Below, piece after piece: positions 24,180 to 37,400 of a stretch of 43,222 nt of DNA (position 1 is the stretch's first letter; every line of letters starts with the position of its first letter). A program made the translations under genes and the position numbers. The DNA is taken from assembly GCA_001801685.1 (NCBI GenBank), contig MGYJ01000062.1, forward strand, positions 1 through 43,222. The letters run 5' to 3'. The notes below the pieces were generated by a model. The model searched no databases. It saw only the letters and a program-made list of their open reading frames with translations, and was not told the origin of the DNA. Source of the stretch: Gammaproteobacteria bacterium RIFCSPHIGHO2_12_FULL_63_22 (GTDB lineage Bacteria > Pseudomonadota > Gammaproteobacteria > Xanthomonadales > Xanthomonadaceae).

Positions 24180-25214
24180 TCAGCGCTTCACGTCGAAGCG
24201 GGCCTCTCCGGCACACGCCAGGATGTCCGCCTCGCTGGCGAGGTTGAAATCACCGGGGATTGAATGCTTGAGCGCGGCCGCGGCCAGCGCGAAGCGCAGC
24301 GCGGCCATGGCATCGTCCTTGCGCGTCATTGCGCCGCCTTGCTTTGCGAGTGCATGCAAGAGTCCGGCGGCGAAGGCATCGCCACCACCGATGCGGTCGA
24401 CGATGCCGGGCAGGTCCATGGCCGGCGCCAGCGTGCTTTGTCCGTCGCGCGTGATCATCACTGCGGCCAGTGCGTGATGGTCAACGCTGTGCTGGGTGCG
24501 GATCGTGCTGGCCAGCATTTGCAGGTTTGGAAACGCGGCGAAAGCCTCGCGCGCGGCGGCCTGCACCTGCAGCGCGGGTCCTTCGTCGGCGAATTGAATG
24601 CCCAGCACGACGGACATGTCGCGGTGGTCGGCGAATACGAGGTCGGCTTCGGCGATCAGTTCGCGCAGGATCCCGGGCGCGTCGCCCTGCCAGGCCTGCC
24701 AGAGCTTGGGCCGGTAGTTGCCGTCGAAACTGACCTTCACGCCCAGCTTGCGGGCGGCGCGGGCAGCGGCCAGCGCGGCGGCGCTGGTGCGCTGGCCCAG
24801 GGCCGGGGTGACGCCGGACAGATGCAGCCAGTCGGCGCCCGCCAGCAGGGCGGGCCAGTCGTAGCCGGCCGGATCGGCCAGGGCGAAGGCTGAATCGGCG
24901 CGGTCGTACAGGACTTCGCTGGGCCGCAGGCCGGCGCCGGTCTGCAGGAAATACAGGCCCATCCGGCCTGGGCCGGTACGTAGCGCGGCGGTGTCCACGC
25001 CATGTCGGCGCAATTCGCCGGCGGCGGCGTCACCGAGTGGTCCGGCCGGTACCACGCCGACCATGCGGGCCTGGTGCCCCAGCCGGGAAAGGGAGACGGC
25101 GACGTTCGCTTCGGCCCCGCCAACCTGAACGGACAGCCGGGGCGATTGCAGCAGGAACTCTCGTCCCGGGGCCCCCAAACGCAGTAAAAGCTCGCCAAAA
25201 CAGACAATTTCCAT
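24180..25214 (-). CDS. kdgK: 2-keto-3-deoxygluconate kinase (PfkB family)
   Basis: 344 residues of the PfkB/ribokinase fold: FGELLLRLGAPGREFLLQ at the start, VGGAEANVAVSLSRLG substrate loop, VSFDGNYRPKLW, and the anion-hole/catalytic signature DRIGGGDAFAAGLLHAL near residue 290. The DGNYRPKLW and GELLLRL features fit KDG kinases. It phosphorylates 2-keto-3-deoxygluconate, the product of KduD (36636-37400), to KDPG. It is divergent from the TonB receptor. An operator copy at 25288-25303 lies about 75-90 bases upstream of its ATG. KDPG aldolase, the next step, is not in the window. Confidence 0.9.
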   Translation of the reverse strand: MEIVCFGELLLRLGAPGREFLLQSPRLSVQVGGAEANVAVSLSRLGHQARMVGVVPAGPLGDAAAGELRRHGVDTAALRTGPGRMGLYFLQTGAGLRPSEVLYDRADSAFALADPAGYDWPALLAGADWLHLSGVTPALGQRTSAAALAAARAARKLGVKVSFDGNYRPKLWQAWQGDAPGILRELIAEADLVFADHRDMSVVLGIQFADEGPALQVQAAAREAFAAFPNLQMLASTIRTQHSVDHHALAAVMITRDGQSTLAPAMDLPGIVDRIGGGDAFAAGLLHALAKQGGAMTRKDDAMAALRFALAAAALKHSIPGDFNLASEADILACAGEARFDVKR

Positions 25215-25287
25215 GGTCCCGCCCCCAGGTTTAGGGGGGTCGCCGGACCCCCTTGTGCAGACTGCCATTCTTTTTGGTACGCTTTTC

Positions 25288-25303
25288 TGACCACCGGTGT
25301 CAG
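25288..25303 (-). promoter_or_regulatory. Operator copy 1 (kdgK side), ACCGGT palindrome
   Basis: TGACC-ACCGGT-GTCA: core ACCGGT at 25293-25298 with a perfect right arm and one extra base in the left arm. On the minus strand CTGACA (25303-25298) could be the -35 of kdgK. It is centred 31 bases, about three helical turns, from copy 2, so two dimers could bind on one face of the DNA. Confidence 0.65.
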
Positions 25304-25318
25304 AAACTCCAGGAGGAA

Positions 25319-25346
25319 ATGATACCGGTGTCAAAGCGTTTATAGA
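25319..25346 (+). promoter_or_regulatory. Operator copy 2 with TonB-receptor promoter
   Basis: TGATACCGGTGTCA (25320-25333) is palindromic but for one pair, and matches the locus consensus. It overlaps ATGATA (25319-25324), a possible -35, and lies just before TATAGA (25341-25346), a fair -10 at a 16-base spacing. A bound repressor would cover the promoter of the TonB receptor (start 25392). The same geometry is seen at kduI. Confidence 0.7.
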
Positions 25347-25391
25347 ACCGGCGACCCACGCCGGTCCACCATATGTCTGGAGGGAGACATC

Positions 25392-28199
25392 ATGAACTCA
25401 GTTAGCAAGGGCCAACGCGGCCCCTTAGTGGCGGTGCTGTCGGCAGCGATTGCGCTTGCCTTGCCCGCGATGGCCCAGGCGCAAGCCCAGGCACAAGCCA
25501 CGACCGAACAAGCTACGGCCGAGAAAGAAAAAGCCGAGGCAGAAGCCGAGGGCGTGAAGACGCTCGAAAAGGTGACTGCAGTCGGTTACCGCGCCAGCCT
25601 CGAGAAAGCGATGGACATCAAGCGCGCCGAAACCAGCGTGGTCGATGTGATCGTCGCCGAGGACATTGCCGACTTCCCCGACCTGAACCTGGCCGAATCG
25701 CTGCAGCGCATCCCGGGCGTCTCCATTGCCCGCGACGCCGGCGAAGGCCGCAACATTTCCGTGCGCGGCCTGGATTCGCAATTCACCCGCGTGCGCATCA
25801 ACGGCATGGAAGCACTGACCACCACCGGCGGCACCGACAGCTCGGGCGGCGCCAATCGCGGCCGCGGCTTCGACTTCAACGTGTTCGCGTCGGAATTGTT
25901 CAGCCGCCTGACCGTGCGCAAGACGGCCGCGGCTGAGGTGGAAGAAGGCTCGCTCGGCGCGACAGTGGATTTGCAGTCAGCGCGACCGTTCGACTACGAC
26001 GGCTTCACCTTCGTGGCGGGTGGGCAGTACGGCTTCAACGACCTGTCCGAAGACTACGATCCGCGCGCATCGATGCTGATCAGCAATACCTTCGCCGAAG
26101 GCCGCCTGGGCGCACTGCTGTCGGTGGCCTACACCAAGCGCAACCTGGTGGAAGAAGGCCACAGCACCGTGCGCTGGGACCGGGGCAACAGCAGCGGTGG
26201 TTTCAACGCGTCGTCGCCGTTTGCTGACGCGCGCCTGGCCAGCACTTTCCATCCGCGCCTGCCGCGCTACGGCATCCTGGAACACGAGCAGGAGCGACTG
26301 GGCGTCACGGGTTCGCTGCAATTCAAGCCGGCGCCCGGCACGGAATTCAGCCTGGACATGATGTACGCGGAGTTCGATGCCAAGCGCACCGAAAACTTCC
26401 TGGAAGCGGTGTCCTTCAGCCGCACCGGCGCCGGCAAGCCGCAGACCATCGTGCGCGATGGTGAGATCGATGGCCGCGGCAACCTGGTCTATGGCTTGTT
26501 CGACGACGTGGACGTTCGATCGGAGGCGCGTTACGACGAACTCAATACGCGCTTTACGCAGTTGGGCCTGACGGGCTCGCACATGTTCACCGACTCGCTG
26601 GAACTGAGCGGCTTCGTTGGCCATTCGAAATCGGATTTCGACAATCCGATCCAGACCACGATTACGCTCGACCGTCAGAACACGGATGGTTTCAGCTGGG
26701 ACTACCGTGACAATGACCGCCTGCCGGTGATTGACTACGGCTTCGATGTGTCCGATCCGAACAACTGGACCTTCGTCAACGGCACGTCCGAAATCCGGCT
26801 GCGCCCGCAAAAGGCGGTGAACTCGTTCGACACCGGGCAACTGGACCTGGGCTGGTCGCTGTCGCCCACCTGGAAGCTGTCCACCGGCATCGTGCAGAAG
26901 CGCTACAAGTTCGTGAGCCAGGAATGGCGACGCAGCAGCGAGCTGGCCGTACCGGCCTTGCCGCCGGGCACCACGCTAGCCGACCTGACTACGCTGATCG
27001 GATTGAACGGCACGCCGGTCGGCGCGGGCAATGATTCGCAGTGGCTGATTCCCGACATCGACGCCTTCAACGCGCTGTACAACATCTACAGCAATTCGGG
27101 CACGTTCGCGGTCAGCCAGAACGTGGCCAGCGTCCGTGGCAACAACCGCAGCGTGATCGAGAAGAGTCTTGGCTGGTACGTGCAGGCCGAGTTCGATGCC
27201 GATATCGGCAGCGTGCCGGTGAAGGGCAATATCGGCGTGCGCCGGGTGGATACCGAACAGAGCTCGACCGGCTTCTCGGTGGTCGGCGGTGTGCCGGTAC
27301 TGACCACGGTTGATCGCGAATACAGCGACACCTTGCCGTCGCTGAACCTGGTGGCGAACCTGACCGATAGTTTCCTGGTGCGCTTCGGCGCCGCCAAGGT
27401 GATGGCGCGTCCGGGCCTGGGCAACCTGACGCCGGGCGTGACGGTCAACGTAAGTGGTGGCAGCCGCACGGTAAACGGCGGCAATCCGCTGCTCGAACCG
27501 TTCCGCGCCAAGACCTACGACCTGGGATTTGAATGGTATTTCGCCGAGGAAAGCCTGTTGTCGCTCGGGTTCTTCTACAAGGACATCGGCAGCTTCGTGC
27601 AGACCTCTCGCGAGACCCGTCCGTACAACACCTCGGGCTTGCCCGACAGTTTGCTGGTCGGCACCGGCGCGTCGCCCACGGATGATTTCCAGTTCAACAT
27701 CCCGGTCAACACGCCCGGCGGTCCGCTGAAGGGTTACGAGATCACCTACCAGCAACCGTTCTCGTTCCTGCCCGGGTTCTGGAGCAAGTTCGGCACGCAG
27801 CTGAACTTCACGCACGTCGCCTCGCAGATCCAGTACGTGACGTCCACCGGCGCCAATTCGCTCAAGACCGACCTGACCGGCTTGTCGGCGAATGCCTACA
27901 ACGCGACGCTTTATTTTGAAGGCGAGCGTTTTGGCGCGCGCGTGTCGGCGGCCTATCGCGATGACTACCTGACCACCGTGCCGGGTCGCAACAACGCGGA
28001 CGTGGAAGGCACCAAGGGCGGCACCAATATCGACATGTCGGCCTCGTGGAAGGTCAATGACCAGGTCGAGATCACCTTCGAAGGCCTGAACCTGACCGAC
28101 GAATACAACGACCAGTGGGTGGACTCGGTGGGCGATCGCGCATCGGTGTACCACCACACCGGACGCCAGTACATGCTGGGCGTGCGTTTCAAGCTCTGA
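25392..28199 (+). CDS. TonB-dependent outer-membrane receptor (TonB-Xanth-Caul type)
   Basis: 935 residues; GGAGGGAGA just before the ATG. The signal peptide ends near AMAQA, followed by a Gln/Ala/Glu-rich spacer (AQAQAQATTEQATAEKEKAE). The plug begins at VTAVGYRASLEKAMDIKR and contains DFPDLNLAESLQRIPGVSI and ISVRGLDSQFTRVRINGM. About 700 residues of beta-barrel end with QYMLGVRFKL, the terminal aromatic-flanked strand. It resembles the TonB receptor subfamily of Xanthomonas and Caulobacter that imports plant oligosaccharides. Operator-controlled promoter and the pectinesterase six bases downstream point to unsaturated galacturonides or pectin fragments as cargo; that assignment is inferred from context. 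Confidence 0.92.
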   Translation: MNSVSKGQRGPLVAVLSAAIALALPAMAQAQAQAQATTEQATAEKEKAEAEAEGVKTLEKVTAVGYRASLEKAMDIKRAETSVVDVIVAEDIADFPDLNLAESLQRIPGVSIARDAGEGRNISVRGLDSQFTRVRINGMEALTTTGGTDSSGGANRGRGFDFNVFASELFSRLTVRKTAAAEVEEGSLGATVDLQSARPFDYDGFTFVAGGQYGFNDLSEDYDPRASMLISNTFAEGRLGALLSVAYTKRNLVEEGHSTVRWDRGNSSGGFNASSPFADARLASTFHPRLPRYGILEHEQERLGVTGSLQFKPAPGTEFSLDMMYAEFDAKRTENFLEAVSFSRTGAGKPQTIVRDGEIDGRGNLVYGLFDDVDVRSEARYDELNTRFTQLGLTGSHMFTDSLELSGFVGHSKSDFDNPIQTTITLDRQNTDGFSWDYRDNDRLPVIDYGFDVSDPNNWTFVNGTSEIRLRPQKAVNSFDTGQLDLGWSLSPTWKLSTGIVQKRYKFVSQEWRRSSELAVPALPPGTTLADLTTLIGLNGTPVGAGNDSQWLIPDIDAFNALYNIYSNSGTFAVSQNVASVRGNNRSVIEKSLGWYVQAEFDADIGSVPVKGNIGVRRVDTEQSSTGFSVVGGVPVLTTVDREYSDTLPSLNLVANLTDSFLVRFGAAKVMARPGLGNLTPGVTVNVSGGSRTVNGGNPLLEPFRAKTYDLGFEWYFAEESLLSLGFFYKDIGSFVQTSRETRPYNTSGLPDSLLVGTGASPTDDFQFNIPVNTPGGPLKGYEITYQQPFSFLPGFWSKFGTQLNFTHVASQIQYVTSTGANSLKTDLTGLSANAYNATLYFEGERFGARVSAAYRDDYLTTVPGRNNADVEGTKGGTNIDMSASWKVNDQVEITFEGLNLTDEYNDQWVDSVGDRASVYHHTGRQYMLGVRFKL

Positions 28200-28205
28200 C
28201 TGTCG

Positions 28206-29288
28206 TTGAAGCGCAGGGATTTCATAGCCCTGGGGTTGATGGCTACGGCGGGCCTGGTGGCCTGTCGTAGCCGGTTCGCTGCGACGCGCATGGATGCGCG
28301 CGTGGGAAGCGCGGAATTCCCGACGCTGGCCGCCGCGATTGCCGCGGCGCCTGCGGATGGACGACACCCCTTCCGCATCCAGGTCGGCGCCGGTCGCTGG
28401 CACGAAAAGCTGATCATCGACAAACCCAACATCCATCTGCTGGGTGAAGGCCGCGCGCGCAGCATCATCAGCTTCGATGCCGCCGCAGGCCTGCGCCGTC
28501 CGGACGGCGAGCCCTGGGGGACCTGGGGCTGCGCCAGCGTGATCGTGCGCGCGCCGGATTTTCGCGCCGAGCACCTGACCATCGAAAACAGCTTCGACTA
28601 CGTCGGCAACCTTTCCGCGCCGAAATTCGAGCCGATCGGACCCAATGGCGCGCAGGCCGTGGCCTTGATGCTGGACGCGGGCGCGGACCGCTGCCTGCTG
28701 CAGGACGTGGACATCCGCGGCCACCAAGACACCTTGTTCGTCGATGCCGGGCGCAGCTTGTTCCGGCGCTGTCGAATCAGCGGCAGTGTCGACTTCGTTT
28801 TTGGCGCGGGGCAGTCGTGGCTGGAGGATTGCGAAATTCTTTCCCGGTTCCGTCCGGGCAAGGAACGGCAGGGCTACATCGCGGTGCCGAGCACGCTGCA
28901 ATCGCAGGCGCATGGCCTGGTGTTTTCGAAATGCCGGCTGATGCGTGAAGCCGGCATTCCCGACGGCAGCGTCGCACTCGGGCGCGCGTGGCGACCGGGG
29001 CGCAGCTTTGCCGATGGCAAGTATGGCGATCCGGCGGTGTTGGGATCGGCCGTGTTCCTGTCGTGCTGGATGGATGCGCATATCGCGCGCGAAGGCTGGG
29101 ATCCGATGGCCTACACCGCGCGCGATGGCCGCCGCGTGATGCTGCAGCCGCTCGACGCGCGGCTATTTGAATTCGACAGCCGCGGGCCCGGCGCCGCGCA
29201 GTCGGCCGGTCGGCGCTGGCTGGATGCTGCGAGCGCAGCGCAGGTTTCGATGCAACGCGTATTGCAGGGTTGGACTATCCTCGACTGA
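28206..29288 (+). CDS. Pectinesterase (carbohydrate esterase family 8)
   Basis: 360 residues, starting with TTG at 28206, six bases after the receptor's stop. The N-terminus KRRDFIALGLMATAGLVAC has a twin-arginine pattern and a lipobox (LVAC), so it is probably a Tat-exported lipoprotein. It is a right-handed beta-helix with the CE8 motifs GHQDTLFVDAG (transition-state Gln and first catalytic Asp), GSVDFVFGAG (second Asp) and LGRAWRPG (Arg and Trp). It removes methyl esters from pectin, making it a substrate for pectate lyase. Co-transcription with the TonB receptor is very likely. The non-ATG start is my choice because no later Met retains the signal. Confidence 0.9.
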   Translation: MKRRDFIALGLMATAGLVACRSRFAATRMDARVGSAEFPTLAAAIAAAPADGRHPFRIQVGAGRWHEKLIIDKPNIHLLGEGRARSIISFDAAAGLRRPDGEPWGTWGCASVIVRAPDFRAEHLTIENSFDYVGNLSAPKFEPIGPNGAQAVALMLDAGADRCLLQDVDIRGHQDTLFVDAGRSLFRRCRISGSVDFVFGAGQSWLEDCEILSRFRPGKERQGYIAVPSTLQSQAHGLVFSKCRLMREAGIPDGSVALGRAWRPGRSFADGKYGDPAVLGSAVFLSCWMDAHIAREGWDPMAYTARDGRRVMLQPLDARLFEFDSRGPGAAQSAGRRWLDAASAAQVSMQRVLQGWTILD

Positions 29289-29352
29289 TCGCGATCAATG
29301 GATCGCCGGCCCGTCACATCGACAGACTGTCGCAAGGTCTTGCGCCGCCCGC

Positions 29353-30732
29353 TTACTTCAGCGGCGCGCGACGCGGCAGCGGCTTCAGCGGCTCCATGGT
29401 GTCGAGGTCCCAGTCGGCCGGCACGAAGGCTTGTCGCGTCTCGGCCTGCACCGGATAACCTCCCACTTCGCTTTCATTGTCGATGATCTTGCCGCGGCCT
29501 TCGATCACGTCGGCCAGGATACGGCGATCGATGTCGTCGCGGTCCCAGGGCCGTGCGCCCGCTTGCGCGACCACGGCGTCCTGCACTTTCGCCGACGGCA
29601 GGAGTTTTACGCCGAAAGGCAGCGATGGCATGGGCCCGCTGCGATCGATGGTGACGGGAGCCGTGGTGTAGCGGCCTTCGATGTCCATGCGGCGTCCCAC
29701 GCGATCCACTGCCAGGTTGTCTTCCATGTGCAGCTCGAGATCACCCGAGCCGCCAATCATGAAGAAGGCGAGATCCTCGGTGGACGGGCCGGCGCGCATC
29801 ACGTTGCCGCGCACCACCATTTGTCCGCGCGAATACGGATGGCCGATCCATTCCTCGGCGATCAGGTTGTAGTGCACGGCGCGCTGGCCGGGGTTGTAGA
29901 TGAGGTTGTTGATGACCTGCCCGCGCGCGCCGCCCTTGAACAAGGGACTGCGCTCGTAGTTGTGCGCATACAGGTTGCCGACGATCAGGATGTCATTGAC
30001 ATGGTCGTGCACCAGCGAGCCCTTGGAATGTTCGCCCTTCTTGTGCGCGGAATTGGCCAGGCCTTCGGCCAGCAGGTTGTTGCTGAAGGTGATGGCGTGC
30101 GAGGCGGATTTTTTCCACGCCGCTTCGTCGGGTCCGTCAAAACGCGTGCTGGACGCTGACAGGTTTTCATCGGTGGCCCAGGTCATCGAGCAATGGTCGA
30201 CGATGATGTTGTAGGCGCCGCGCTGGGTGGTTAGCGCGTCGAAGTCGGGCCCTTCCATCTTCGCGGAACCGGCCTGGCCGGGGCGCACGCGCAGGTGGCG
30301 GATGACCACGTCATGCGTTGCGATGACGAGGCCGCCGCGGATGAGGGTGATGCCGGGCATGGGCGCGGTTTGTCCGGCGATGGTCAGGAAAGGTTCGGTG
30401 ATGCGCACGTCCTCCTTGCCCAGGTCGATGACGCCGCCGACTTCGAACACGACGGTGCGCGCGCCGGGCGTGGCCAGCGCCTCACCGAGTGAGCCGGGAC
30501 CCTTGGGCGCTAGCGTGGTGACGCGAATGAGTTTGCCGCCACGGCCGCCGGGCGTGTGCGCGGCCCAGCCCTGCGCGCCGGGGAAAGCCAGCGTCGGTGG
30601 GGTGGCGGTGGCGGCAGCGGCAGCGACGGTGCCGGACTGCAGCATCGCGGCCAGCAGCGACGCAGCAAGCAGCAACGGCGCCCCGCGCCAACCCGCGGGG
30701 GTCCTGGAAAGGGTGGATGGCTTGATGGGCAT
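29353..30732 (-). CDS. Secreted pectate lyase (PL1-like beta-helix)
   Basis: 459 residues from the ATG at 30732. The signal peptide has a hydrophobic core (APLLLAASLLAAMLQSGTVA). The mature part begins LAFPGAQGWAAHTPGGRGG and continues as a parallel beta-helix (SLGEALATPGARTVVFEVGG, ITEPFLTIAGQTAPMPGITL, VVIRHLRVRPGQ, YNIIVDHCSMTWATDENLS, NDILIVGNLYAHNYERSPLF). These features fit pectate lyases of family PL1; the DHCSMTWATDE stretch would carry calcium-binding acids. It cuts de-esterified polygalacturonate to unsaturated oligomers. It is convergent with the pectinesterase and divergent from the FAH/TRAP operon, sharing the operator at 30819-30832. Confidence 0.85.
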   Translation of the reverse strand: MPIKPSTLSRTPAGWRGAPLLLAASLLAAMLQSGTVAAAAATATPPTLAFPGAQGWAAHTPGGRGGKLIRVTTLAPKGPGSLGEALATPGARTVVFEVGGVIDLGKEDVRITEPFLTIAGQTAPMPGITLIRGGLVIATHDVVIRHLRVRPGQAGSAKMEGPDFDALTTQRGAYNIIVDHCSMTWATDENLSASSTRFDGPDEAAWKKSASHAITFSNNLLAEGLANSAHKKGEHSKGSLVHDHVNDILIVGNLYAHNYERSPLFKGGARGQVINNLIYNPGQRAVHYNLIAEEWIGHPYSRGQMVVRGNVMRAGPSTEDLAFFMIGGSGDLELHMEDNLAVDRVGRRMDIEGRYTTAPVTIDRSGPMPSLPFGVKLLPSAKVQDAVVAQAGARPWDRDDIDRRILADVIEGRGKIIDNESEVGGYPVQAETRQAFVPADWDLDTMEPLKPLPRRAPLK

Positions 30733-30811
30733 GTCCGGCTCCGCAGGTTGGGTTTTGGCGAGGAATCGTGGACGGGAGGACCGTTGCCGAGCATCGGCCC
30801 GTGGCGACCGA

Positions 30812-30840
30812 TTGTAAATGACACCGGTTTCCTTTATACA
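30812..30840 (+). promoter_or_regulatory. Operator copy 3 inside the FAH/TRAP operon promoter
   Basis: TTGTAA (30812-30817), a 17-base spacer, then TATACA (30835-30840): a good promoter for the gene starting at 30903. The operator TGACACCGGTTTCC (30819-30832) fills the spacer exactly. Bases 30816-30833 are identical over 18 positions to 35725-35742 upstream of kduI. It also lies 87 bases upstream of the pectate-lyase ATG, so it may control both directions. Confidence 0.75.
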
Positions 30841-30902
30841 GATTACGCTTGGATTCGCCCCCGCGGCGAACCGGAAACCAGGGCCCAGGGAGGCCGACCG
30901 CG

Positions 30903-31739
30903 TTGGACAGCAGCCAGCACACGAGCGAATCGCCAGGAACCCAGGCCATTGCGGCGGCGTTCGTGCGGGCGCGGTTGGCGGGCACACCGCTCGATGGCTT
31001 CCCCGGGCGCATCCCGGACGACCTCGAGGCGGCGTACGCCTGCCAGGACGCGGCCATTGCCCTGTGGCCGGACCAGGTGGTCGGCTGGAAGGTTGGCTAT
31101 ATCGCCCCGGCGCAGCGCGATGCCGGCGGGGACCCCAGGCTGGTCGGTCCGATCTTCAAGCACGCGGTCTGGCCGGAAAATCCGGGCGGGATCCTCGACT
31201 TTCCGGTCTTCGTCGGCGGCTTTGCCGCGGTCGAGGCCGAATACATCTTCCGACTGGGCAGCGACGTGCCCGAAGGCAGGACCGAATTCAGCGCCGACGA
31301 GGCCATCGCACTGGTGGCTTCGCTGCAAGTCGGCGTCGAAACCGCGGGCAGCCCGCTCGCGACTATCAACGTGCTCGGCCCACGCGTCGTGGTTTCGGAT
31401 TTCGGCAACAATGCCGGCCTGATCCTGGGCCCGGAAATTCCGGACTGGACGCACATGCCGGACTCGCAATTCAACTGCTCGTGCAGCATCGACGGCGTGC
31501 TGGTCGGCCGCGGCGGCGCCGGATCGGTGCCGGGTGGGTTGGCGGCTGCATTGGCATTTGCCATCGGACGTTGCGCACGGCGCGGCATTCGCCTGCGCGC
31601 GGGCACACTGGTCACCACGGGCGCTGCCACCGGCATCCACGATATTTCGGTCGGCCAGGTCGCGCGACTCGACTTCGACGGCATCGGCAGCATCCAGTGT
31701 CGCGCCGTGCCGGCGACGGCAAGCGCAGGCCAGGCATGA
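30903..31739 (+). CDS. Fumarylacetoacetate hydrolase/2-keto-4-pentenoate hydratase family enzyme
   Basis: 278 residues from a TTG at 30903, chosen because AGGGAGG lies 9 bases upstream; an ATG frame-mate at 30849 has no such site. The fold is that of FAH/MhpD proteins: GWKVGYIAPAQRDAGGDPRLVGPIF, the metal-binding VEAEYIFRLG, ALVASLQVGVETAGS, and the C-terminal AGTLVTTGAATGIHDISVGQ. It should act on a 2-keto acid through a divalent metal. It is the first gene of an operon with the TRAP transporter (ATGA overlap at 31736). In a uronate locus it may handle a keto-deoxy sugar acid by-product, but no step of the known Kdu pathway needs it. Substrate unknown. Confidence 0.82.
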   Translation: MDSSQHTSESPGTQAIAAAFVRARLAGTPLDGFPGRIPDDLEAAYACQDAAIALWPDQVVGWKVGYIAPAQRDAGGDPRLVGPIFKHAVWPENPGGILDFPVFVGGFAAVEAEYIFRLGSDVPEGRTEFSADEAIALVASLQVGVETAGSPLATINVLGPRVVVSDFGNNAGLILGPEIPDWTHMPDSQFNCSCSIDGVLVGRGGAGSVPGGLAAALAFAIGRCARRGIRLRAGTLVTTGAATGIHDISVGQVARLDFDGIGSIQCRAVPATASAGQA

Positions 31740-32755
31740 CCAGTCGTCGCGGCTTCCTCGGCATGGTGGCCGCGGCGGGCGCGGTGGCGCTGGCCTCGCG
31801 TTCGCGCGTTGCGGGCGCGGCGGCTTCAGCAGGCACGAACGCCTCGGGCGCGATGGTGCTGACCGCCACCGACGTGCACGTGAAGGACTATCCGACGGTG
31901 AAAGCCGTGCAATGGATCGGCGAGCAACTGGCGCGTGAAACCGACGGCCGCATCTCCATCCGCCAGTATCATTCCGGCCAGCTGGGCCGCGAGTCGGAAG
32001 CGATCGACATGGCGCGCTTCGGCGCGATCGACTTCACCCGCGTCTATACCGGCGCGCTGAACAATGCGTTTCCGCAGACGCAGGCGCTATGCCTGCCCTA
32101 CACCTTCGACTCCGTGGCGCACTTGCGTCGCACCCTGGATGGAGCCGTCGGTGCGCAGGTGTTGAAGGGGTTTGAAGCGCGCGGCCTGGTCGGCCTGGCC
32201 ATCTACGATTCCGGCGCGCGCTGCTTCTACAACACGCGCCGGCCCATCAACGTACCGGCCGACCTGCACGGCCTGAAGCTGCGCGTGCCGCCGTCGGACA
32301 TTTTCATGGCGCTGATTCGCCAGCTGGGCGCCAACCCGACGCCGCTGCCCTATGGCGAGGTCTTTTCGGCGCTGCAAACGCACCTGATCGACGGCGCCGA
32401 AAACAATATCCGTAGCTTCCATTCCAGCCGCCAGTTCGAAGCGGCGCGCTACTGGTCGGAAACCGAACACTCCTACGCGCCAGATGTATTGGTGATGTCG
32501 AAATCACGCTTCGATGCACTGTCGGCCGACGACCGCGAGCGCATTCGCCGCCTGGCTGCCGCCTCGGTGCAGGTGATGCGCGGGTTGTGGGACCAGGGCG
32601 CGAATGAGGCGCGGTCGAAATTGCTCGAGCAGGGCGTGCAGATGAATGCGGTGGACATGGCGGCGTTCCGCCAGGCTGCCGAGCCGGTGCTTCGTGCCTA
32701 TCGCGACGATGCGACCGTCGGCCCACTCGTACGCGCGATTCGCGCGTTGGCCTGA
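31736..32755 (+). CDS. dctP: TRAP transporter solute-binding protein (DctP family)
   Basis: 339 residues; the ATG overlaps the upstream stop (ATGA). The N-terminus SRRGFLGMVAAAGAVALASR is a twin-arginine signal, so the protein folds before export to the periplasm. The mature DctP features are VKAVQWIGEQLARETDGRISI, YHSGQLGRESEAIDMARFGAIDF, KLRVPPSDIFMALIRQLGANPTPLPYGEVFSALQTHLIDGAENN. The conserved Arg in LKLRVPP binds the carboxylate of the ligand. Context suggests a uronate or a keto-deoxy sugar acid produced outside or in the periplasm. Confidence 0.92.
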   Translation: MTSRRGFLGMVAAAGAVALASRSRVAGAAASAGTNASGAMVLTATDVHVKDYPTVKAVQWIGEQLARETDGRISIRQYHSGQLGRESEAIDMARFGAIDFTRVYTGALNNAFPQTQALCLPYTFDSVAHLRRTLDGAVGAQVLKGFEARGLVGLAIYDSGARCFYNTRRPINVPADLHGLKLRVPPSDIFMALIRQLGANPTPLPYGEVFSALQTHLIDGAENNIRSFHSSRQFEAARYWSETEHSYAPDVLVMSKSRFDALSADDRERIRRLAAASVQVMRGLWDQGANEARSKLLEQGVQMNAVDMAAFRQAAEPVLRAYRDDATVGPLVRAIRALA

Positions 32756-32766
32756 AGGACCAAGGC

Positions 32767-33273
32767 ATGACCGATCAAGCCACTCCCAACACGCAGCCCA
32801 GCACCGGACTCGATTCGCTGGCGCGCATCGCCATCGGCATCGCCGGCCTGTCATTGATTGGCGTGGTGATCGTGCAAGGCTGGCAAGTGGTGGCGCGTTA
32901 CGTGTTGAACGATTCGCCGGGCTGGACCGAACCGGTGGCCGTGCTGCTGCTGAACACCGCCATGAGCTTCGGCGCGGCGGCGGCGGTGCATGGCAACGCG
33001 CATTTTTCGTTTCCATTGTTGCTGGCGAAATTGCCGCCGACGCTGCGTCGCGCCTGCGCGGTCCTGGGCAACCTGGCCATCGCTGGTTTCGGCGCGGCCC
33101 TCGCCTTCTGGGGGACGCAGCTGCTGATCGACGGGCTGGATGTGCGCATGGCCGGCGCGATGCTGCCGCAGAGCGCCGCCTTCGCACCGATGTCCATCGG
33201 CGGCGCGCTGATGGTGCTGTTTGCGCTGGCGCGATTGCGCAGCGACGGCACGAAACCGACGGAGTCGCACTGA
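32767..33273 (+). CDS. dctQ: TRAP transporter small permease (DctQ family)
   Basis: 168 residues with four hydrophobic helices (about 20-38, 56-73, 96-116, 137-157). The family motif is seen in YVLNDSPGWTEPVAVLLLNTAMSFGAA, matching the W-E-E region of DctQ. It follows dctP by 11 bases and precedes dctM by one, in the order usual for TRAP operons. Confidence 0.9.
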   Translation: MTDQATPNTQPSTGLDSLARIAIGIAGLSLIGVVIVQGWQVVARYVLNDSPGWTEPVAVLLLNTAMSFGAAAAVHGNAHFSFPLLLAKLPPTLRRACAVLGNLAIAGFGAALAFWGTQLLIDGLDVRMAGAMLPQSAAFAPMSIGGALMVLFALARLRSDGTKPTESH

Positions 33274-33274
33274 C

Positions 33275-34555
33275 ATGGCCGTTGCGCTGCTGTTCGCGGT
33301 CTTCGCGCTGCTGCTGGCCATCGGCGTACCGGTGGCCTTCGCCTTGGCGACCTCGTCGCTGGCGACGCTGCTGTACCTGGGGCTGCCGCCGATCGTGGTG
33401 GTGCAACAGACGGCGGCGGGCGCAGGTTCGGCCTCGCTGCTGGCAATTCCGCTTTTCATATTCGCCGGCGAGATCATGCTGCGCGGCGGCATTTCGGAGC
33501 GATTGATCGCGCTGGCCTCGGCGCTGGTGGGCCATATGCGCGGCGGCCTGGGCCAGGTCAGCGTGGTGTCGTCCCTGTTTTTCGGTGGCGTGTCGGGTTC
33601 GGCCATTGCCGATGTATCGGCGATTGGCGGCGCCATGATCCCGCAGATGGCCAAGCGCGGTTTTGATCGCGACTTCGCGGTGAATGTCAGCATTACCGCG
33701 GCGCTGGTCGCCTTGCTGGTACCGCCTTCGCACAACCTGATCCTGTATTCCGCCGCGGCCGGCGGCGGCCTGTCCATCGCCGATTTATTTGCCGCAGGTC
33801 TGTTGCCGGCGCTGTTGATGACCGCCGTGCTGATGCTGACCGGCTGGGTGATCGCGCGCAAACGCGGTTACGCGGTCGAAGCCTTCCCGGGCATGACGGT
33901 GGTGCTGACGCGTTTCCTCGCGGCCTTGCCCGGCCTGTTGCTGGTCGCGCTGATCTTCATCGGCATCCGCGCCGGCGTTTTCACGGCCGTCGAAAGTGCG
34001 GCGATTGCGGTGGTATACGCGTTGGCGGTGACCGCGCTGCTGTATCGCGGCCTGAGCTTCACGGGTTTCATCGAGGCTTGCAGCGGCGCGGCACGCACCA
34101 CCGGCGTGATCGTGTTCGTGATTGCCGCGGCGTCCACCTTCGGCTGGCTGCTGGCCTACCTGCAGGTGCCCGCGGCCGCCGTGGATGCGCTGCGCGAGAT
34201 TGCCCACGACAAGACTGCGGTACTCGCGCTGATCGTGGTGGTGTTGCTGGTGCTCGGCACCTTCATGGACCTGGCGCCGCTGATCCTGATCTGCACGCCA
34301 ATCTTCCTGCCCGTGGCCAAGGCCTACGGCATCGACCCGATCCACTTCGGCGTGGTGCTGATCCTGACCGGCGGCGTCGGCCTGATCACGCCGCCGGTGG
34401 GTTCGGTGCTGTTCGTGGGCGCGGCCATCGGCAAGATCAGCGTGGCGCAAACCCTGCGCAGCATCTGGCCCTTCTACCTGGCGGCCTTGTCGGTGGTGTT
34501 GATGGTGACCTTCATCCCGGCGCTGTCGCTGTGGCTGCCAGCCGTGATGAAGTGA
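33275..34555 (+). CDS. dctM: TRAP transporter large permease (DctM family)
   Basis: 426 residues from the ATG at 33275. It has about 12 hydrophobic helices and classical DctM motifs: LLAIPLFIFAGEIMLRGGISERLI, GGLGQVSVVSSLFFGGVSGSAIADVSAIGG, TAALVALLVPPSHNLILY, and near the end LTGGVGLITPPVGSVLFV. It uses the sodium or proton gradient to import the acid delivered by DctP. The gene starts two bases after the dctQ stop. The LacI regulator follows 46 bases later. Confidence 0.93.
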   Translation: MAVALLFAVFALLLAIGVPVAFALATSSLATLLYLGLPPIVVVQQTAAGAGSASLLAIPLFIFAGEIMLRGGISERLIALASALVGHMRGGLGQVSVVSSLFFGGVSGSAIADVSAIGGAMIPQMAKRGFDRDFAVNVSITAALVALLVPPSHNLILYSAAAGGGLSIADLFAAGLLPALLMTAVLMLTGWVIARKRGYAVEAFPGMTVVLTRFLAALPGLLLVALIFIGIRAGVFTAVESAAIAVVYALAVTALLYRGLSFTGFIEACSGAARTTGVIVFVIAAASTFGWLLAYLQVPAAAVDALREIAHDKTAVLALIVVVLLVLGTFMDLAPLILICTPIFLPVAKAYGIDPIHFGVVLILTGGVGLITPPVGSVLFVGAAIGKISVAQTLRSIWPFYLAALSVVLMVTFIPALSLWLPAVMK

Positions 34556-34601
34556 TCGGCGGCTTGCCTTAGAATCAGGGACAGACCGCTTCGGGATCCG
34601 C

Positions 34602-35666
34602 ATGCCACCGCGCCGCGCCAAGGACACTCGCCCCGCCGCCGCGCCCAAGCCCAGCGCCGCCGGCAAGACCACCATCAACGACATCGCGCGCCTGGCCGGC
34701 GTGTCGAAGAAGACGGTGTCGCGCATCATCAACCACTCGCCGCTGGTGCGCGAAGACACCCGCGAAAAAGTGCAGTCGGTGATGAACGAGCTGGGCTTCG
34801 TGCCCGACCCGATGGCGCGCGCGCTGGCCTTCCGCCGGTCCTTCCTGATCGGCATGGTGTACGACAACCCGAACGCGGAATACATCGTCAACATGTTGAG
34901 CGGTGCGCTCGACAGCCTGCGCGGCACCGGCTTCGAGCTGGTCGTGCATCCCTGCGACAGCAAGAGCCCCGACTACATCGAGGGCGTGCGCCAGTTCGTG
35001 TTGCAGCAGCGCCTGCATGGCGTGTTCCTGGTGCCGCGCGTGTCCGAGGACCAGGCGCTGGTGGACATGCTGAAGGAAACCGATTGCCGTTACGCGCGCA
35101 TCGCCGCCATCAGCCTGGACGACGCGGCGCGCATGATCACCACCAACGACCGCGAAGGCGCGGTGGAAGTGGCGAAGTACCTGGAGTCGCTCGGCCACAA
35201 GCACATCGGCCTGATCACCGGCCCGCAGCGCTACTTGTCCACGCGCGAACGCGGCGCGGGCTTCATCGATACTTTGTCGAAACGCGGCGCCGCGCTTCCT
35301 GCGAAATACATTGCCGAAGGTGGTTACACCTTCGAGTCGGGCGTGGCCTGCGCCGAGCGCCTGCTGGCCCTGAAGCCGCGGCCCACCGCCATCTTCGCGC
35401 TGAACGACGAAATGGCGGCGGGCGTGTACAAGGCCGCACACAAGCTGGGCCTGTCGGTGCCGGAGGATCTGTCCGTGGTCGGTTTCGATGACAGCCCGAT
35501 CGCCTCGCGCCTGTGGCCCTCGTTGAGCACCGTGCGCCTGCCGATCCGCGACATGGGGCTGCACGCGGCGGCGATGCTGCTGGCCGACCCGGCCCGGCCG
35601 CGCCCGGCCCCGGTCATCACGCCCTACCTGGTGGTCCGCGAGTCCTGCCAGCCGCCGCGCGGCTGA
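34602..35666 (+). CDS. LacI-family transcriptional regulator of the uronate locus
   Basis: 354 residues. After a basic, Ala/Pro-rich leader (1-22), the helix-turn-helix TINDIARLAGVSKKTVSRIIN and hinge PDPMARALAF are typical of LacI proteins. The effector domain has MVYDNPNAEYIVNMLSGALD, AISLDDAARMITTNDREGAVE, HKHIGLITGP, AIFALNDEMAAGVYKAA and SVVGFDDSPIASRLWPSL. It is probably the protein that binds the four ACCGGT-centred palindromes of this locus; a central CpG is usual for LacI operators and the pattern is restricted to uronate promoters here. The effector may be KDG or a related intermediate. Both binding and effector are inferences. Confidence 0.9.
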   Translation: MPPRRAKDTRPAAAPKPSAAGKTTINDIARLAGVSKKTVSRIINHSPLVREDTREKVQSVMNELGFVPDPMARALAFRRSFLIGMVYDNPNAEYIVNMLSGALDSLRGTGFELVVHPCDSKSPDYIEGVRQFVLQQRLHGVFLVPRVSEDQALVDMLKETDCRYARIAAISLDDAARMITTNDREGAVEVAKYLESLGHKHIGLITGPQRYLSTRERGAGFIDTLSKRGAALPAKYIAEGGYTFESGVACAERLLALKPRPTAIFALNDEMAAGVYKAAHKLGLSVPEDLSVVGFDDSPIASRLWPSLSTVRLPIRDMGLHAAAMLLADPARPRPAPVITPYLVVRESCQPPRG

Positions 35667-35726
35667 ATCCCTGCATCGAGGCCCACGGCGTCCGGGTCGC
35701 CCCCAGCACCGCTTGCCGAGGGCAAA

Positions 35727-35755
35727 ATGACACCGGTTTCCTACCGGGCTATGAT
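35727..35755 (+). promoter_or_regulatory. Operator copy 4 over the kduI promoter
   Basis: ATGACA (35727-35732) and TATGAT (35750-35755) with a 17-base spacer form a strong promoter for kduI, about 36 bases before its ATG. The operator TGACACCGGTTTCC (35728-35741) covers the -35 and part of the spacer, as expected for repression. Bases 35725-35742 repeat the sequence at 30816-30833 exactly. Confidence 0.75.
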
Positions 35756-35790: not shown

Positions 35791-36639
35791 ATGTACGCCA
35801 AGACCTACCACGCCACCCATCCGGACATGATGGTCGGCGCCAGCAACGACCAATTGCGCGACCGTTACCTGTTCACCGGCCTGTTCACCGCCGACAAAAT
35901 CGCGCTGAACTACACGCATTACGAGCGCATCGTGGTCGGTGGCGCGGCCCCGGTGGCCGGCGCGGTCGAATTGCCCGTGCAGATCGAACCCGCGTCCGCG
36001 GTCGGCAAGCCTTTCCTCGATCGTCGCGAACTGGGCGTGGTGAATGTCGGCAATGGTTCGGGCCGCATCACGGTGGACGGCGCGGTCTTCGCGATGAAGC
36101 CGCGCGACGGCCTGTACGTACCGATGGGCAGCGCGCAGGTGCGCTTCGAATCCGACGATTCGGCGAACCCCGCGCAGTTCTACCTGGTATCCACGCCGGC
36201 GCATGCGCGCTTCGAAACCGTGCACATTTCCATCGACCAGGCCGTGCCGCTCGAACGCGGCGCGCTGGAAACCTCCAACCAGCGCGTGATCTACCAGTAC
36301 ATCGTGCCGGCCACCTGCCGCAGCTGCCAGTTGCTGCTGGGCCTCACGTTGCTCAGCCCGGGCAGCGTCTGGAACACCATGCCGCCGCATTTGCACGACC
36401 GTCGCAGCGAGGTCTATTTCTACTTCGGGCTGGCCCAGGGCCAGCGCGTGATGCACTTCATGGGCGAGCCCAGCGACACGCGCCACCTGGTGGTGAATGA
36501 TGGCGAGGCGGTGGTGTCGCCGCCGTGGTCCATCCACATGGGCTCGGGCACCAGCAACTATGGTTTCATCTGGGCGATGGGCGGCGAAAACCTGGACTAC
36601 ACCGACATGAACCAGCTCGACATCTGCCAGCTGAAATGA
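35791..36639 (+). CDS. kduI: 5-keto-4-deoxyuronate isomerase KduI
   Basis: 282 residues, full length for the family. It is a cupin-like protein: [24 protein letters not shown] at the start, [20 protein letters not shown], and the zinc-binding cupin stretch [17 protein letters not shown] with its histidines and Glu, followed by [24 protein letters not shown]. It converts 4-deoxy-L-threo-5-hexosulose uronate, from complete lyase digestion, to 2,5-diketo-3-deoxygluconate. Its stop overlaps the kduD start (ATGA). Control is by operator copy 4. Confidence 0.96.
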
Positions 36640-37400
36640 ACGCCGCCAACAACCCCTTCAACCTGCAGGGCAAGGTTGCGCTGGTCACCGGCGCCAACAC
36701 CGGCCTGGGCCAGGCGATTGCGATCGCACTCGCCGCCGCGGGCGCCGACATCGCTGCCGCGGGTACGTCGGCGCCTGATGAAACGAAAGCGCAGGTGCTC
36801 GCGCTCGGCCGCAGTTTCGCCGCGATCGAGGCCAATCTTTCCAGCATCGAACCGGTGCAGCGCATCGTCGAGGAAACGATCGAGGCGCTGGGCGGCATCG
36901 ACATCCTGGTCAACAACGCCGGCACGATCCGTCGTTGCGATGCGGTGGACTTCACCGAGGCCGACTGGGACGCGGTGATGGACGTGAACCTGAAAACCGC
37001 CTTCTTCCTGAGCCAGGCGGCGGGCCGGCGGATGCTGGCGGCCGGCCATGGCAAGATCATCAACATCGCCTCGATGCTGAGCTTCCAGGGCGGCATCCGC
37101 GTGCCGTCCTATACCGCCAGCAAGCACGGCATCGCCGGCGTCACCAAACTGCTGGCCAACGAATGGGCGAGCCGCGGCATCAACGTCAACGCGATCGCGC
37201 CCGGCTACATGGTGACCAACAACACGACGGCGTTGCGCAATGATGAAACCCGCAATCGCGACATCCTCGCCCGCATTCCGGCCGCGCGCTGGGGCGAGGC
37301 GAAGGATATTGGCGGCGCCGCGGTGTTCCTGGCGTCGGCGGCTTCGGATTACGTCAACGGCATCGTGTTGCCGGTGGATGGCGGCTGGCTGGCGCGCTAG
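36636..37400 (+). CDS. kduD: 2-deoxy-D-gluconate/2-dehydro-3-deoxygluconate 5-dehydrogenase KduD
   Basis: 254 residues, short-chain dehydrogenase. The cofactor motif is [12 protein letters not shown] (TGxxxGxG), then NNAGTIRR, catalytic Ser in [12 protein letters not shown], and YTASKHG (Tyr-x-x-x-Lys). The C-terminus [26 protein letters not shown] is typical. [30 protein letters not shown] is characteristic of KduD. It reduces 2,5-diketo-3-deoxygluconate to KDG with NAD(P)H, feeding KdgK (24180-25214). It is translationally coupled to kduI. The 3' end overlaps the convergent GGDEF-EAL gene by four bases. Confidence 0.95.

Follow-up and report, generated by a model that had tools for sequence, protein, structure and literature searches.

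A predicted pectin and uronate regulon of a LacI-family repressor, with operator-like sites of mixed half-site spacing

KdgR of Dickeya and Pectobacterium, an IclR-family protein that responds to 2-keto-3-deoxygluconate (KDG), represses pectin catabolism; the regulator described here has a similar pectin target and belongs to the LacI family instead. The gluconate repressors GntR and IdnR are likewise regulators of sugar-acid use, and GntR operators have an ACCGGT-like core, but the LacI-family protein of the window (the whole stretch of 43,222 nucleotides that was analysed) scores far under both equivalog cut-offs (60.1 bits against 433 for GntR, and 85.8 against 500 for IdnR), and identity with either was rejected.

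Among local LacI-family regulons, those of the LacI-type KdgR, UxaR, UxuR, and ExuR are described in PMC4052901. According to the part of that study drawn on here, highly conserved palindromic operators are usual in the family, and the members of an ortholog group usually share one distance between half-sites, flexibility being confined to rare cases. The window resembles these regulons in its LacI-type regulator, apparent autoregulation, promoter-near sites and association with uronate and KDG genes, with sites before kduI-kduD, kdgK, and the FAH-TRAP operon; unlike in them, so far as the same part of the source goes, the second half-site varies here in both sequence and spacing, and in the terms of PMC4052901 the flexible spacing would be such a rare case. 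The main text of PMC4052901 makes no mention of Xanthomonad or Xanthomonas. The sux CUT locus of Xanthomonas campestris, as presented in the part of PMC1790865 drawn on here, brings together a TonB receptor, carbohydrate enzymes, an inner-membrane transporter, and the LacI-type regulator SuxR, and the window is alike in having genes for a TonB-dependent receptor (TBDR), pectinesterase, pectate lyase-like protein, TRAP transporter, and LacI protein clustered at 24 to 37.4 kb. The same part of PMC1790865 reports that XCC0120 is induced by polygalacturonate and that XCC0120-0122 is a putative pectin locus which seems unique to Xcc, and gives no operator for it; orthology of XCC0120 to the TonB receptor of the window could not be shown. 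Our literature search, with RegPrecise and paper supplements outside its scope, found no earlier description of a pectin operator in this bacterial family, and none of the 17 papers containing the string TGACACCGGT is titled on this subject.

We propose, with a probability of roughly 0.85, that the local LacI protein is the repressor of a pectin/unsaturated-uronate regulon of some eleven genes under three control regions. Sugar regulons with a local LacI-family regulator are well known, and the circuit is in that sense solid but ordinary, while the mix of site shapes is unusual; what is gained is a concrete, testable pectin-use regulon for this family.

The pectin gene cluster and its LacI-family protein

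The cluster comprises the following genes, with positions given in the window.

24180..25214, minus strand: kdgK, PfkB-family, 2-keto-3-deoxygluconate kinase-like (Pfam PF00294)
25392..28199, plus strand: TonB-dependent receptor of the TonB-Xanth-Caul type (TIGR01782, 709 bits, cut-off 310)
28206..29288, plus strand: pectinesterase (PF01095)
29353..30732, minus strand: pectate lyase, PelZ-like (NF041900, 404 bits, equivalog cut-off 840)
30903..31739, plus strand: FAH/hydratase-like protein, start uncertain (NF008461, 31 bits against a cut-off of 350)
31736..34555, plus strand: TRAP transporter dctP-dctQ-dctM (dctP PF03480; dctM PF06808/TIGR00786)
34602..35666, plus strand: LacI-family regulator of 354 aa, final gene of FAH-dctPQM-lacI (PF00356, PF13377)
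35791..36639, plus strand: kduI, 5-dehydro-4-deoxy-D-glucuronate isomerase (NCBIfam NF002091, 394.5 bits, cut-off 250)
36636..37400, plus strand: kduD, 2-dehydro-3-deoxy-D-gluconate 5-dehydrogenase (TIGR01832, 405.1 bits, cut-off 338.85)

The Pfam/NCBIfam cut-offs are passed by kduI, kduD, the receptor, and the scanned TRAP subunits, dctQ (32767-33273) being named from its position alone. The PelZ-like pectate lyase, kdgK, the PemA-like pectinesterase, and the FAH protein fall below the NCBIfam equivalog cut-offs, and their exact functions are putative. For kdgK the top NCBIfam model is a KDPG aldolase/kinase fusion, with a score under the cut-off; the Pfam scan gave no match for the pectate lyase (29353-30732), and the FAH/hydratase-like protein (30903-31739) matched zero Pfam models and only weakly the NCBIfam hydratase models. 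The latter might act on an unsaturated uronate; its gene precedes the TRAP genes in most of the relatives read as well. The pectinesterase gene follows that of the TonB receptor after a gap of 6 bp, and the two are likely co-transcribed.

The product of 34602-35666 contains both LacI/GalR domains over their cut-offs (PF00356, 69.5 bits; PF13377, 127.9 bits). A search of solved structures returned 71 distinct sequences at E <= 1e-10, the best being 7ff4, and among the 60 of these 71 that were listed most are named LacI-family regulators. Two other LacI-type proteins were found in the genome, with 33 and 37% identity to the local one; their recognition helices read SMKT and SVAT, and that of the local LacI protein SKKT. 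A further observation concerns one of the other LacI-type genes (L032, G000:C82, locus position 1343), which has an upstream TGATAGCGCTGTCA palindrome with the core AGCGCT and encodes a recognition helix with M in place of K.

Operator-like sites and their conservation in relatives

The window has four operator-like sites, distributed over three intergenic regions, namely between kdgK and the TonB receptor, between the pectate lyase and FAH-TRAP-lacI, and upstream of kduI-kduD.

25288..25302, minus strand: operator 1, odd-spaced TGACACCGGTGGTCA (TGAC-N7-GTCA), identified by sequence and from the kdgK/TBDR regions of relatives
25320..25333, no strand assigned: operator 2, even near-palindrome TGATACCGGTGTCA, its core 31 bp from that of operator 1
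30819..30832, plus strand: operator 3, TGACACCGGTTTCC, between pectate lyase (minus) and FAH-dctPQM-lacI (plus)
35728..35741, plus strand: operator 4, TGACACCGGTTTCC, upstream of kduI-kduD

The positions of the sites in an earlier note on this DNA all hold on re-checking, as does its statement that 30816-30833 and 35725-35742 share 18 identical bases, of which 14 form the operator proper. That note had also described the sites as an ACCGGT core with TGAC/GTCA arms, which is only partly right: the relatives are better described by a fixed TGACACCGNT and a second half that differs between promoters.

An ortholog of the LacI protein (59-73% identity, E <= 1e-110, list read by hand) is present in 81 of the 198 sampled genomes of the family, the window's own genome included; up to 20 kb was read around 40 loci from the 80 relatives with an ortholog (29 best-scoring and 11 hand-picked). 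When 10-mers were counted over about 250 bp upstream of gene starts, with the motif not used as input, the top one was ACCGGTGTCA both at kduI (35/36 regions) and at FAH (36/37). The top 10-mer is much rarer at the control starts of lacI (14/40) and dctM (23/38); the other control starts, dctP (30/38) and kduD (34/38), are also high, their upstream stretch being conserved coding sequence. The site itself was found within 2.5 kb in all 37 kduI regions, window included (within 102 bp in 36 of them, and furthest off in L064, at 1.5 kb), and at the FAH promoter in 37 of 38 regions. This de novo count and the site positions at kduI and FAH are the unconditioned support for the motif, as the fixed left half seen in the position weights arises by construction, the sites having been chosen with TGAYACCGGT.

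The 14-mer TGACACCGGTTWMC occurs in 44 of 119 genomes (reversed control, one match in all 119), comprising 43 of the 45 with a lacI ortholog and 1 of the 74 without (Fisher p 9e-29, with phylogeny ignored; nearly all genomes belong to one family and the counts are not independent). In the one genome that has the 14-mer but no ortholog (G096) the match lies inside a 442-aa ORF. By hand count about 81 of 85 matches are no more than 12 kb from lacI on the same contig. Additional matches were seen upstream of FAH on another contig (a second match in G092), in the start of a TonB-receptor homolog preceded in addition by TGACACCGGTGCCA (G018), and, by eye, directly before an esterase-like ORF (G117). 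The gene kduI is found in 72 of the 198 genomes, all 72 on the ortholog list, and none of the 198 has kduI without the lacI ortholog.

The LacI ortholog occurs together with the sites and the target genes in some 20 genera of this family, and at two loci outside it. One of these is in a genome of another family of the same class (homolog of 52% identity, L147/L211, locus GC 46%), with three such sites around FAH-lacI and kduD; the other is in the alphaproteobacterium Glycocaulis profundi (homolog of 55%, L160), with four sites in the neighbourhood of lacI, kduI, and a TonB receptor. Six of 46 loci were examined (L155-L160, among them L157 of the relative Chiayiivirga flava, which has all the sites), and every one of the six has sites close to lacI or kduI. 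By contrast, no site was found up to 1.5 kb away in L148, whose homolog is 48% identical, and two genomes with the ortholog, G028 and G071, lack the 14-mer and have no TGAYACCGGT in the 12.5-15 kb around lacI. The co-occurrence bears out the reading of the earlier note and strongly supports placing the four sites in a putative regulon under the local LacI protein, which, judged by sequence comparison, very likely binds them.

Two side observations belong here. The LacI protein of G071 (L210) is 59% identical and has the same recognition helix, yet no TGAYACCGGT occurs in 12.5 kb of its locus. A second LacI gene (52-53% identity) stands beside the locus, with its own upstream TGACACCGGTAGTCA site, in L084, L087 (G090, G138), L245, and L246.

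Two half-site geometries and the question of a second regulator

In relatives the conserved element is TGACACCGGT plus a degenerate right half. From these comparisons the fixed part of the operator appears to be TGACACCGNT and ACCGGT to be dispensable; ACCGGT as an essential core was rejected, as the sites of 20 kdgK/TBDR regions carry C or A for its second G. Operator 2, TGATACCGGTGTCA, is a near-perfect even palindrome with a central CG, but relatives keep only one half constant and show no enrichment of the symmetric form, with 5 matches at <=2 mismatches in 29 lacI loci of relatives (L034-L062). Of 268 permuted palindromes run on the same loci (mean 1.0), 8 or more had 8-18 matches; this speaks against a simple palindrome as the conserved form, several permuted ones matching as well or better.

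The second half instead depends on the promoter, being TWMC at kduI and FAH and giving a 15-bp odd-spaced TGACACCGNTRGTCA at kdgK/TonB receptor. The TWMC form was found in 33 of 37 kduI regions (19 genera; the others have the odd form in 2, another form in 1, and no site within 400 bp in 1) and in 37 of 38 FAH regions (22 genera; no site in 1). Among 20 kdgK/TBDR intergenic regions (L212-L231), hand-picked from ortholog genomes with tandem-ACCGGT-pair genomes left out, all 20 contain TGACACCGNT, 13 of them in two copies, and 19 contain TGACACCG[CA]T[GA]GTCA, with the TGAC and GTCA arms 7 bases apart; the exception, L225, has TGACACCGCTAGCCA at that place. On the minus strand operator 1 has this odd form with G as its middle base, which explains why its TGAC/GTCA arms are one base out of register with those of the other window sites; judged by the relatives, this is a second operator form in its own right. 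In six of the 20 loci (L215, L217, L224, L225, L230, and L231) a variant (A or C)GACACCGGTTACC was also seen before the aligned receptor start, possibly inside the stretch that encodes the signal peptide.

Over whole genomes the odd 15-mer is present in 75 of 198 (one match for the reversed control), and, counting matches anywhere in the genome, in 71 of the 81 ortholog genomes and 4 of the 117 others. Of the three inspected among these four (all but G053), two have their match in a long ORF and one is ambiguous. The ten ortholog genomes without the 15-mer include G028, G071, G124, and G179, which also lack kduI. By our own count, 30 loci with the 15-mer (one per genome) are sorted into 18 beside kdgK, 2 before the second lacI, 1 before kduD, and 9 elsewhere. 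Single-base shuffles were used in reading the 20 kdgK/TBDR regions.

Doubling of sites is a further trait. Tandem ACCGGT pairs, their cores 31-35 bp apart, were found in six of the 198 genomes (none with the reversed control), and all six adjoin kdgK, five between kdgK and the receptor and one, in G018, between kdgK and pectate lyase; the five that were typed mix even, odd, and other forms. Second copies at 112-179 bp from the first are found in 22 genomes. The spacings of doubled sites being in phase with helical turns is suggestive only (Monte Carlo p 0.006 over 13 spacings and 0.056 over seven classes, with classes and control ranges chosen by us and not every pair checked at the receptor promoter).

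The least ordinary feature is this mixed half-site spacing inside one regulon. We tentatively suggest, at a little short of even odds, that one LacI repressor reads two geometries which are sorted by promoter and kept across many genera, the even hybrid TGACACC/GGTWMC at catabolic and transporter promoters and the odd TGACACCGNTRGTCA at kdgK/outer-membrane-receptor promoters. The second half could then set affinity or cooperativity, so that receptor and catabolic genes would respond at different inducer levels, and the doubling at receptor promoters, with spacings near whole helical turns, would point to looping or cooperation. If one protein does use both spacings, dozens of genomes offer a natural operator comparison set at the same promoters, which would show how far LacI-family proteins tolerate changes in half-site spacing and asymmetry.

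The division of forms between promoters (TWMC at kduI and FAH, odd at kdgK/TBDR) and the presence of further LacI-type proteins in these genomes would also fit two regulators, with the local LacI protein on the TWMC sites and a different LacI-type protein on the odd 15-mer. We consider this unlikely. In g10 and g44 one locus apiece has the odd form in place of TWMC at kduI, and in G022 (L233) the odd form precedes kduD, observations which argue that one regulator reads both; odd and even-type sites also stand side by side at one promoter in the window and in G103, and the odd 15-mer tracks the ortholog of the local protein.

Proposed repression, promoters, and genome-wide occurrence

The sites, their conservation, and their co-occurrence with the regulator were computed, and from them we infer binding, repression, promoter assignments, cooperativity, and inducer. 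In the preferred reading, that of the local LacI protein as a single repressor, the units under control would be kdgK with receptor-pectinesterase, pectate lyase with FAH-TRAP-lacI, and kduI-kduD. The protein would bind the fixed half-site TGACACCGNT together with a variable second half and, when pectin is absent, block sigma-70 polymerase. The FAH cluster ends with lacI, which lies 46 bp beyond dctM, so autoregulation is likely. The promoter elements on which the model draws are as follows.

35727..35755, plus strand: kduI promoter ATGACA-17-TATGAT, operator 4 over the -35 box (10/12 consensus matches)
30812..30840, plus strand: tentative promoter TTGTAA-17-TATACA, operator 3 in the spacer (by eye)
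25278..25283, plus strand: tentative -10-like TACGCT of the TBDR promoter (TGNTA in tandem-pair loci)

By our own count, a -10 element matching 4 or more of 6 positions at a spacing of 17-19 is found in 30 of 37 kduI regions, window included, and in the FAH regions of relatives TTG.. and TATAC/TACAA elements flank the site by eye; a consensus promoter scan at 30700-30920 and 25200-25420 gave no promoter. In six tandem-pair loci a TGNTA element lies, by eye, about 9-10 nt before the first core. The sites had been said to lie over or between -35 and -10 boxes, which stands at 35728, where there is a consensus match, and by eye at 30819; the TonB-receptor pair, by eye, sits downstream of the -10-like TGNTA element.

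The repressor would thus cover the -35 box at kduI; at FAH it would occupy the -35/-10 spacer, where it would probably also impede the pectate lyase promoter on the opposite strand; and at the receptor it would sit at and just past the start, where it may bind cooperatively to the two operators, separated by about three helical turns. These layouts fit repression by occlusion. Some LacI-family proteins activate, for example Cra/FruR, and an activator or dual regulator of that type would suit the second copies lying 112-179 bp from the first; the proximal sites overlap the core promoter or start region (partly by eye), as occlusion would have it, and we regard activation as distinctly unlikely.

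Release of the local LacI repressor would come from an intermediate of the lyase pathway, most likely KDG or an unsaturated/5-keto uronate before it. A search whose control was positive for 7 of 14 genomes found no UxaC in the genome, a result that favours an inducer from the lyase pathway over galacturonate. By eye, the LacI gene of G071 (59% identity) is two ORFs away from an aldolase-like gene. Together with the presence of kduI, kduD, and kdgK, the absence of UxaC and this neighbour would point to KDG or a nearby intermediate.

It is very improbable that the conserved block is a promoter element only, that is, a -35 box TGACA with its spacer and no operator. TGACA does double as the -35 box of kduI, with the -10 spacing given above, but at FAH the block lies between -35-like and -10-like elements, tandem copies adjoin kdgK, 10-14 bases are fixed, and the 14-mer is missing from 73 of 74 genomes without a LacI ortholog. 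The three g14 loci read all carry the kduI operator in reverse orientation with TGACACCGGTTACC preserved, so the site is more than a -35 box, and a pure promoter element was rejected on this ground.

The earlier note had called for a genome scan, since many unrelated matches would speak against its interpretation; the scan leaves that interpretation in place. Exact TGAYACCGGTNTC, a 13-mer taken from that note, occurs in the 4.26 Mb genome as 4 strand-hits in 3 places, all at these promoters. At <=1 mismatch the motif says little, because 38 strand-hits stand against 22 for the reversed control over the whole genome. The 10-mer TGAYACCGGT gives 13 strand-hits (6 for the reversed pattern), of which 5 are window sites, all intergenic and one near-palindrome counted twice, and 8 lie inside apparent coding frames, among them L104, with a frame of only 129 aa, and L112, which is murE by eye. 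Within the window, TGAYACCGGTNTCA at <=3 mismatches gives 23 matches, against 11.4 +/- 3.5 in shuffles. Chance resemblance of short palindromes in a GC-rich genome, for which these loose matches and the unenriched symmetric palindrome at the lacI loci of relatives might speak, is scarcely credible, the exact matches being limited to these promoters and the asymmetric form being conserved across relatives, and it was refuted by the comparative data.

A pattern allowing both spacings, TGACACCGNTN{2,3}CA, has 5 matches in the genome and 1 for its control. Two of the five are window sites, two lie within long ORFs, and one (L263) lies just beyond the end of an open frame and about 1 kb before an ORF that by eye resembles the start of a TonB receptor, with no pectin gene recognised in its surroundings. 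From these genome-wide matches, the regulon in this genome appears to be confined to the window.
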